A stretch of 17,295 nt of DNA, taken from positions 1-17,295 of the forward strand of contig JAAEMC010000580.1 of NCBI GenBank assembly GCA_024225895.1, read 5' to 3'. The position numbers and the translations under genes were made by a program. Below, piece by piece: positions 8,697 through 11,398 of this stretch. Numbering within the stretch: position 1 is the first letter of the stretch; every line of letters starts with the position of its first letter. The notes below the pieces were generated by a model. It searched no databases, was not told where the DNA came from, and saw only the letters and a list, made by a program, of their open reading frames with translations. This stretch comes from Desulfobacteraceae bacterium. GTDB lineage: Bacteria > Desulfobacterota > Desulfobacteria > Desulfobacterales > Desulfobacteraceae.

Positions 8697-11153
8697 GTGA
8701 GTGAAAAAAATAATCAATTTCAACTCGATAAAGACAACAGAGACATCATCTCCCTGGCTGTGAAGTGCAAGTTCATAAACATGGACCAGGAAGATAAAGT
8801 TTTAGCCCATCTGTTCAAACAATTGCAGTCTCAGCCGGGCAGATCCGTAGTTCAGATTTTTAAGGAGCTTAAAATACTTTCTGATGAAGAACTGAACCTG
8901 CTTTTATCCATTAAGCAACACCTGGAGATTAAAACACTGGACAAGCGGTTTGGCAAACTGGCTATCGCCAATAATTTCACCACTGTTGATGCGATTGAAA
9001 AGGGGTTGAAAAGTCAATCGGCTATATATAAAAAGACAAGGAGGAATCTGCCATTGGGCGATATTCTTGTGAAAAGCCGGCAGTTGTCTGAACCACACCG
9101 GACAGCCCTGATGTTAACCCAGGACCGAATCAAGGATGAATATCTTGCCAAAGCCATGAACGATTTGGCCAAAAGTGAGTTGGAACGTTTGGAGATCAGC
9201 AAACGATTCGGTACCATTGCTGCAAAATTGGGTCTGGTTTCCATTGAAGATGTCAACAAAGCCTTGGCTATCCAGAAAAATGAGGTAAAGCACGGCATGC
9301 CGAAACGGTCAATGGAAGATATTCTCAAAGAATCATTTGGGTTGCCGCCCGGTGCAGCATTGGGGATTTTTAAAAAACAGAAAATCGTTGAGAAACAAAG
9401 ACTGAACCTGGAAAGTGCCCTGTCCCAATACAATTCTGAAATAAAAATTAACCGGAAATTATCCAGACTGTTTGAATATTCTATTTCAAAGGATAAATTA
9501 GAGGTGTTTGTCCGGATTAACAAATCCTATTCAGATACCATTACGGTGTACAATCTGCAAAATTGGCTGAAGCTTGCCGGAATACAATTTGGACTTGTAG
9601 ATGATCTGCATATCCAGGAATTTTTAAACAACGGTCAAAAAGGTGCTGAAATAAAAGTTGCCCAGGGTATTCCGCCAAAAGGCGGCCAGGATGCAACCAT
9701 TAAATTTTGTTTTGATATACCTTCAACCACATCGCCTAAAAAGCAGGAAAAGGGTGCCAACCCATTTGTGAGAAAAGGAGATCCTCTGGCAAAAAGGGTT
9801 CCCCACAAAGAAGGTGAAACCGGTATGGATATTTTTGGACGAATCATATATCCCAAAGAACTTAAAACCTGGGACATTGGGTGCGGCAAAGGAGTGGAAA
9901 TAATCCAGGATAATACCTTTGTTTCCACGATTGACGGATATCCAATGTTGTATCAGGACCGGACCTTGTTTGTGACCCCTAAAGAAAAAAAGAGAAAAAC
10001 CCTGCTTTTTTCTGGAAATGTTGAACCCGGAATGGGAGATTCATATCAGAAAATCAATTTGGAAGTGGCTGGTAATATCAGTCCCGGAGCCTCATTGAAG
10101 TGTCATCAATTATCGATCAGCGGAGATGTTTTAGGGATGGTCAAGGCAACGGGAGATGTGGATATAAAAGGCGGGATCGGGATTAAAAATATGGATCCAA
10201 GCAATTCTTTACAAAAAAGCCTTGTAACCGCAGATGGGAACATCAATGTCAGAAAAAATGTTGAACATACCCAGGTGGATTGCGGTAAATTGTTCCAGGC
10301 ATTGAATGCAGATGTGGTCTCGTCTCAGATCAGCGCTTTTGAAGGGATATTTGTTAAAAACGTATATTGCAACGGCGGTGACCCCTGCACCCTTAGAATT
10401 GGTCATCAGGTCACCCAAAAAATTCTGGATCTGGATCAGGAGATTGACCAGATGACAAAAGAACTCAGAGAACTTCTTCAATCAGATAAAATGGAAGCTA
10501 TGGATGAAAGACTTCATCACCAGATTCAGGTGCAGGACGAGTTCAGAGAAAAGCAGAATGCTTTAACCTACCTGATCAAAATTATGGGGGACCTGGATCT
10601 GGATAATGTGGGTAAACTTGGTCCGGGATTTGATTTTTTATCGCTGCCCGATCAAGAAGAGGGTGACGGTGAAGTCACCTATGGTATCCCGAAAAAAACA
10701 AAAGCATATGAATATCTTCAGGAAGTACTGGATGAAATAGATGGTCTGTCCCCGAAAAAACAATTAGCCAAGGTTCAAAAAATGCTGGAGCTAAATTCAG
10801 GCATGTATAAGACAGCGGTCAATGCTACGGAAAGAATGGATAAAGAATCTCAGATCAAAACAGACCTGGCCCAAAAACAGGGGCAAGCGAATATTTCCAA
10901 GGTTCAGAAAATTGAAGAAAAACTGGCTACATCGAAGATGGAAAAGGATTATCTCTTCTCAGAACATGAGATGGCACTTTTAAATAAGGTCCCGGAAGTT
11001 CGGGTGAAAAATCAGATTTCCCAGGGAGTGGTTATAGAAGGCAACCAATCCCGGCTGGTTATAGAGAAGACCATCTACGGGGTAAAGTTTTTTGAAACAA
11101 AAAATCCGGTCAACAATAAATTCGGTATTGTTATAAAAGGTTATTATGAATAA
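8697..11153 (+). CDS. FapA family (DUF342) protein with N-terminal MshEN-like motifs
   Basis: This 818-residue cytoplasmic protein starts at GTG with a weak AAGGT site. The FapA/DUF342 core spans about 355-570: 'NPFVRKGDPLAKRVPHKEG', 'GMDIFGRII', 'DIGCGKGVE', then a repetitive beta-helix-like stretch (SGNVEPG, AGNISPG, SGDVLGMVKATGDVDIKGG). Residues 571-630 and 670-760 are charged helices, probably coiled coil. The N-terminal third has three related helical units. Two hold a 24-residue motif at 84-107 and 170-193 with R-F-G at the start, L at position 21 and Q at position 24, the spacing of the MshEN cyclic-di-GMP motif. FapA was named for flagellar assembly, but DUF342 proteins have wider, poorly known roles. 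It is divergent from birA and 29 nt upstream of the selenoprotein gene. The core assignment is secure; the MshEN reading is inference. Confidence 0.85.
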   Translation: MSEKNNQFQLDKDNRDIISLAVKCKFINMDQEDKVLAHLFKQLQSQPGRSVVQIFKELKILSDEELNLLLSIKQHLEIKTLDKRFGKLAIANNFTTVDAIEKGLKSQSAIYKKTRRNLPLGDILVKSRQLSEPHRTALMLTQDRIKDEYLAKAMNDLAKSELERLEISKRFGTIAAKLGLVSIEDVNKALAIQKNEVKHGMPKRSMEDILKESFGLPPGAALGIFKKQKIVEKQRLNLESALSQYNSEIKINRKLSRLFEYSISKDKLEVFVRINKSYSDTITVYNLQNWLKLAGIQFGLVDDLHIQEFLNNGQKGAEIKVAQGIPPKGGQDATIKFCFDIPSTTSPKKQEKGANPFVRKGDPLAKRVPHKEGETGMDIFGRIIYPKELKTWDIGCGKGVEIIQDNTFVSTIDGYPMLYQDRTLFVTPKEKKRKTLLFSGNVEPGMGDSYQKINLEVAGNISPGASLKCHQLSISGDVLGMVKATGDVDIKGGIGIKNMDPSNSLQKSLVTADGNINVRKNVEHTQVDCGKLFQALNADVVSSQISAFEGIFVKNVYCNGGDPCTLRIGHQVTQKILDLDQEIDQMTKELRELLQSDKMEAMDERLHHQIQVQDEFREKQNALTYLIKIMGDLDLDNVGKLGPGFDFLSLPDQEEGDGEVTYGIPKKTKAYEYLQEVLDEIDGLSPKKQLAKVQKMLELNSGMYKTAVNATERMDKESQIKTDLAQKQGQANISKVQKIEEKLATSKMEKDYLFSEHEMALLNKVPEVRVKNQISQGVVIEGNQSRLVIEKTIYGVKFFETKNPVNNKFGIVIKGYYE

Positions 11154-11182
11154 TTGTTTTATTTATTTAGGAGTTAATGTTC

Positions 11183-11398
11183 ATGGATATTAAAATTCAC
11201 TATTGCTCTCAATGAAATTACCAGCCAAGAGCTGCCGGTCTGGCAGATCAAATAAAAAATGAATTGAATCTCAACGCACAGATTGTGCCCGGATCAAATG
11301 GGATTTATGATGTGGTTGTCAATGATAACATTATCTTTTCCAAGCATAAGGAAAACCGTTTCCCTGAAAACAATGAAATCTTGAATATGTTGAAATAA
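11183..11398 (+). CDS. SelW-like (SelT/SelW/SelH, Rdx family) selenoprotein with in-frame UGA
   Basis: Reading the TGA at 11213-11215 as selenocysteine gives a complete 71-residue protein from ATG 11183 to TAA 11396. It begins MDIKIHYCSQ-U-NYQPRA, the CxxU redox motif (C8, U11) in the setting typical of SelW, and continues with AAGLADQIK (helix), NAQIVPGSNGIYDV and 'VVNDNIIFSKHKENRFP', the family's beta-strand layout with the usual G.FdV and lfskk..grfP features. An AGGAG site at 11169-11173 lies 9 nt upstream; the in-frame ATG at 11177 is too close to it. A SECIS-like hairpin follows the UGA. It lies 29 nt after the FapA-like gene, probably co-transcribed. SelW-like proteins are small thioredoxin-fold redox proteins whose bacterial role is unsettled. 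Standard ORF calling splits or drops it. A nonsense-mutated Cys homologue is the alternative, but the intact frame downstream and the hairpin argue against that. Confidence 0.88.
11213..11246 (+). promoter_or_regulatory. Bacterial SECIS element
   Basis: Directly after the UGA (11213-11215), CTGCC (11232-11236) and GGCAG (11242-11246) form a perfect 5-bp stem closing the five-base loop GGTCT (11237-11241). The loop carries the G-U pair that SelB recognises and equals the apical loop described for the E. coli fdhF SECIS. It starts 21 nt after the UGA, within the range normal for bacterial elements. No bulged U below the mini-stem, as in E. coli, is evident. The element lies wholly inside the coding region, as expected in bacteria. 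Confidence 0.75.

Follow-up and report, generated by a model that had tools for sequence, protein, structure and literature searches.

A reading frame for a SelW-like protein behind a FapA-like gene

The window, i.e., the whole stretch of 17,295 nucleotides analyzed here, carries downstream of a FapA-like gene a frame running from ATG at 11183 to TAA at 11396–11398, with the TGA at 11213–11215 as its sole interruption (Table 1). When this TGA is translated as selenocysteine (U), the protein starts with MDIKIHYCSQUNYQPRAAGLA and the TGA occupies the U of a CxxU motif (C8-S-Q-U11-N-Y-Q-P-R-A); frame, codon and motif are exactly those described in an earlier note on this DNA, and the ribosome-binding site assumed there could be located as well. 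An alternative in-frame start at ATG 11177, leading to a protein of 73 aa, is possible; the position corresponding to 11183 is ATG in 34 of the 36 named homologues analyzed below. None of the standard-code ORFs of at least 60 aa listed for the window overlaps the frame, which standard gene finders skip because codon 11 looks like a stop. The gene had been called hidden in the earlier note, and this is right for 11183–11398, yet the SelW family itself is not new.

Table 1. Features of the predicted selW locus, with positions referring to the window.
Feature	Position	Strand	Basis
FapA-like gene, upstream	8697..11153	+	Pfam FapA_N 2.5e-29, FapA 1.1e-9; ends 29 nt before selW
Ribosome-binding site, AGGAG	11169..11173	+	Sequence; 9 nt 5' of ATG 11183
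selW-like selenoprotein gene (predicted)	11183..11398	+	71 codons plus TAA; translation with TGA = U, Pfam Rdx 9.4e-19, TIGR02174
Predicted selenocysteine codon U11 of CSQU, in-frame TGA	11213..11215	+	TGA conservation in homologues
SECIS-type hairpin, 5 pairs, CUGCC-GGUCU-GGCAG	11232..11246 (11232–11236 with 11242–11246)	+	Covariation

The FapA-like gene encodes a protein of 818 aa featuring a long N-terminal part beyond the FapA domains. Regarding the neighborhood, tblastn at 1e-5 did not detect FapA, EamA, AlaX-like, ORF 13011, ATP-grasp, or BirA in any of 58 SelW loci, for all of which the SelW control was positive (58/58); because the flanks available were short, reaching no more than 4000 bases for the named loci and about 1500 for the others, this search says little about the wider context. 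The promoter scan returned no promoter, and the sole terminator-like site, located within the gene on the opposite strand, was not taken as real.

Family assignment and predicted fold

With Cys replacing U, residues 3–70 matched the Pfam family Rdx (PF10262) with an E-value of 9.4e-19 (67.8 bits versus a cut-off of 22.6), and since this match extends across nearly the whole frame, a chance frame is ruled out. The protein also scored above the cut-off of NCBIfam TIGR02174 (53.8 versus 34.2 bits). For NCBIfam NF041051 (SelTWH_Campy), the score of 86.8 bits, again with Cys replacing U, was under the cut-off of 88; because this cut-off was missed by 1.2 bits, the protein was placed only in the wider SelW/Rdx family.

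SelW-related proteins were furthermore found by the PDB sequence search; the three alignments shown have Cys where the window protein has U. The predicted model (Cys for U) reached a mean pLDDT of 96.2 and places the CxxU motif after the first strand (residues 3–8), with a helix at residues 14–28. Foldseek analysis of this model listed bacterial SelW-related or Rdx-type proteins in the best 21 PDB rows (TM 0.80–0.91); mouse SelW scored TM 0.68, and thioredoxins scored weaker. The solved Cys-type SelW-related structures 2fa8, 3dex, and 2p0g share fold and colinear sequence with the window protein but possess Cys rather than Sec in the alignments shown, and proteins of this type need no SECIS element because Cys replaces Sec. 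Membership in the SelW/Rdx family and full-length colinearity, as previously proposed, are thus supported by the Rdx match, the colinear PDB homologues, and the SelW-like fold of the model.

Conservation of the TGA codon among relatives

Scanning of genome contigs yielded 36 named homologous loci, the record titles of which name several phyla; in all 36, the aligned codon is TGA and the frame continues. At codon 11, none of these loci showed TAA, TAG, or a frameshift, i.e., the signs of decay that would have spoken against the earlier reading were absent. The scan was performed with six peptides of the window; since none of them contains residue 11, its design did not exclude Cys forms, and because they derive from the window, it favors close relatives.

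In a search of 58 genomes of relatives, 21 had a SelW match. Within the same family, 19 out of 35 genomes (own genome included) were positive, each with one match containing exactly one TGA, and the other two matching genomes yielded weak matches only, including one with two TGA codons and one stop-free fragment. In the larger sample from the phylum, 57 of 395 genomes matched, and TGA was present in 53 of the 58 matches, the profile for this search having been built from Sec forms. The five stop-free matches represented four Cys forms and one tandem second copy with Gly at this place. Cys at position 11, for which a comparison had been suggested, was accordingly seen in the four forms from the phylum and in the three PDB alignments; Cys forms are maybe under-sampled because the searches relied on window peptides or on a Sec-form profile.

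Two loci of the phylum sample deserve separate mention. L157 (G168:C32:38500-39000) comprises a SelW-like frame in which the TGA at the Sec place is accompanied by an additional in-frame TAG. L156 (G377:C134:8100-9400) contains tandem SelW-like copies at about 229–441 and 796–1014. The first has TGA and all five hairpin pairs; in the second, which has possibly lost selenocysteine, the Sec position is occupied by GGA (Gly) and four of the five pairs form.

In principle, the locus might be a Cys-type Rdx gene that has decayed through a mutation of TGC or TGT to TGA, and in the three alignments shown, solved Rdx-type proteins do carry Cys at this place. However, the TGA is common to all 36 named loci, the frame is otherwise open, and the hairpin described in the next section covaries, so that decay of this kind appears extremely improbable.

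A SECIS-type hairpin downstream of the TGA codon

The loop of the hairpin (GGUCU, 11237–11241) follows the TGA at a spacing of 21 nt, which falls within the UGA-to-loop distance of 16–37 nt given for bacteria (PMC10778597). As SECIS criterion, a hairpin 3' of the UGA whose small apical loop contains a G was applied; G was found at the first two loop positions in 51/51 and 29/29 sequences of the two sets introduced below. From the window sequence alone, the hairpin could be due to chance, because the 60 nt after the Cys codon folded no better than shuffled sequences (z −0.51; 56 of 200 shuffles equally good). Likewise, Rfam yielded no match, neither for the window with gathering scores nor around the gene with E-values. 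Comparison across homologues, in contrast, revealed conserved and covarying pairs, which indicates that the hairpin is not a chance structure. The downstream hairpin mentioned in the earlier note was therefore borne out by covariation, though not by folding of the single sequence.

The first set comprised 54 out of 59 sequences, i.e., the window, the 36 named loci, and 17 of 22 other loci. All five pairs were present in each of its 51 distinct sequences. L066 and L068, lying outside this set, also keep five of five pairs, and L069, L070, and L071, representing weak hits of genome G055 (with two TGA codons, one TGA codon, and a stop-free fragment, respectively), were left unscored. The second set, obtained from the phylum search, consisted of 31 of the 52 TGA matches from genomes other than the own one (29 distinct; 21 unscored). 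Here, 26 of the 29 distinct sequences retain all five pairs, and in the remaining three, pair three is the only one broken. As one sequence is common to both sets (79 distinct sequences together), the second set is almost but not fully independent of the first. In the four Cys forms, 3, 1, 2, and 2 of the five pairs are retained, which is a weak control because these forms are distant homologues.

Pair two is formed by the third bases of the Ala17 codon and of codon 21 and was realized in the 51 sequences as U-A (27), C-G (18), U-G (3), G-C (2), and A-U (1). Where residues 17 and 21 are both encoded by Ala codons, these third bases are free of protein constraint, yet they covary: pair two forms in 49 of 49 such sequences, compared to a mean of 34.1 and a maximum of 43 in 20,000 shuffles, calculated without tree correction. 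The two positions also featured the highest mutual information among the 105 third-position pairs in the stretch, which argues against mere G+C drift. Furthermore, 18 sequences, hand-picked from the 51 for variety, showed 100% pairing at the true register versus 18–61% when slid. For the same 18 sequences, four of five measures beat 500 of 500 shuffles; the number of pairs changed on both sides was two, a value reached in 35 of 500 shuffles.

Coupling of residues 18 and 21

Pair three is formed by the first position of codon 18 and the second position of codon 21 (the codons lie at window positions 11234–11236 and 11243–11245, respectively). The residues encoded there were Ala-Ala (49) or Ser-Glu (2) in the 51 sequences of the first set, and Ala-Ala (13), Ser-Glu (10), Val-Ala (3), Thr-Ala (2), or Ser-Ala (1) in the 29 of the second set. 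The combination Ala-Glu was never seen in the scored sequences, and the three sequences of the second set with a broken pair three are those with Thr-Ala or Ser-Ala. RNA pairing accounts for this coupling; a contact between positions i and i+3 of the helix is an alternative, and the counts are uncorrected for shared ancestry. Whether the SECIS hairpin, situated where the protein is most conserved, steers its evolution, such that RNA and not only protein contacts would set the residues following Sec, is in our estimation an even bet. The coupling is not described in the parts of the cited SelW literature consulted here, which were not the result of a literature search aimed at it.

Selenocysteine machinery in the own genome

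The own genome (G000) is represented by an assembly of 4.6 Mb in 1184 contigs with a completeness of about 81%. Of the four selenocysteine genes that the earlier note had proposed for examination, selA and selB were identified, and selC and selD were not found in this 81% complete assembly. The selB gene is whole (353.4 bits, over cut-off), so that its absence, which would have contradicted the earlier note, does not apply; selA (542.1 bits, over cut-off) runs without a stop as far as the end of its contig. For selC, no hit above the Rfam cut-off was obtained, and three weak tRNA-Sec hits (L007, L008, and L009) turned out to be Tyr, Arg, and Leu tRNAs by ARAGORN. The tRNA-Sec of a relative used as DNA query also returned nothing from the own genome, a search that lacks a positive control and hence shows little. 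Two selD-like hits were rejected as selD, being below cut-off and without TGA.

Among the 58 genomes searched, tRNA-Sec was detected above cut-off in 45 and selD in 51, and the selD matches listed over cut-off contain one in-frame TGA each, save one fragment. For the 18 same-family relatives possessing selW, the corresponding numbers were 15 for tRNA-Sec and 17 for a selD match over cut-off. As the assembly is only about 81% complete and most near relatives have both genes, the missing selC and selD are interpreted as assembly gaps, and both genes are presumably present in the living organism.

Concerning other selenoproteins, an in-frame TGA was found in two of three FlpD copies of the own genome, namely L121 (G000:C712:6831-7199) and L122 (G000:C748:4511-4879), and the copy L120 is without TGA. 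Formate dehydrogenase was dismissed as a second selenoprotein; its 11 matches in the own genome were all below cut-off and had no stops.

The fact that neither selC nor selD was located in the assembly would fit a strain in which selW is intact but one of these genes has been lost, so that the full protein is no longer made. This is considered very improbable, if somewhat less so than the other alternatives, in view of the 1184 contigs and incomplete state of the assembly, the whole selB, the selA open until the contig end, the two FlpD genes retaining an in-frame TGA, and the frequency of tRNA-Sec and selD in the selW-bearing relatives. Another possibility is that general reassignment or suppression of stops, with no selenium involved, lets the TGA be translated as an ordinary amino acid. 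Nothing was found that speaks for it, and it is again extremely improbable: table 11 suffices to keep the long neighboring ORFs open, a large number of genes could be identified with no read-through, the own genome contains selA and selB, and the SECIS-type hairpin accompanies the TGA forms and is incomplete in the four Cys forms, though these are distant homologues.

The region 11183–11398 is therefore very probably a functional selenoprotein gene of the SelW/Rdx family, as predicted from the evidence above. The ribosome would start at 11183, and at UGA 11213 a complex of SelB and Sec-tRNA, recruited by the hairpin 21 nt downstream, would insert selenocysteine, after which translation would continue to the TAA at 11396. 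The product would be a thioredoxin-like protein of 71 residues with a C-x-x-U redox pair just ahead of the first helix, probably acting as a thiol/selenol oxidoreductase.

Relation to known SelW-like selenoproteins and meaning of the finding

Bacterial SelW-like selenoproteins were reported as the most abundant family in a Sargasso Sea survey (PMC1088965), and Desulfotalea psychrophila and Geobacter sulfurreducens were already listed with a SelW-like selenoprotein in a study also describing few or no Cys homologues of SelW-like proteins in Sec-containing organisms (PMC1794560). Bacterial SelW-like selenoproteins (Rdx, PF10262) are likewise listed in PMC13188914. Bacterial SelW genes that annotation had overlooked were reported together with a hairpin of 5–6 pairs, supported by covariance, in Epsilonproteobacteria (PMC4607533); for SelW of C. 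jejuni, translation past the UGA was supported by Ribo-seq and proteomics (PMC11955535).

The window gene shares with the bacterial SelW-like selenoproteins, as far as they are portrayed in these sources, the CxxU motif, the Rdx domain, the in-frame TGA, and the hairpin just downstream, and differs from them in sequence and host alone. A likeness to Campylobacter jejuni SelW (NF041051) is evident from the 20 of 20 aligned relatives matching this profile at E 0.001, but the window protein itself remains under the cut-off (see above) and belongs to another lineage. Since bacterial SelW-like selenoproteins have been published since 2005–2006, the window gene is a further example and not a new family. 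With the finding, a missing gene is filled in and a selenoprotein is assigned to a genome that has known sulfate reducers among its relatives, but the general view of selenium biology stays as it was. The covariation of two synonymous bases provides a clean demonstration that the hairpin is under selection.
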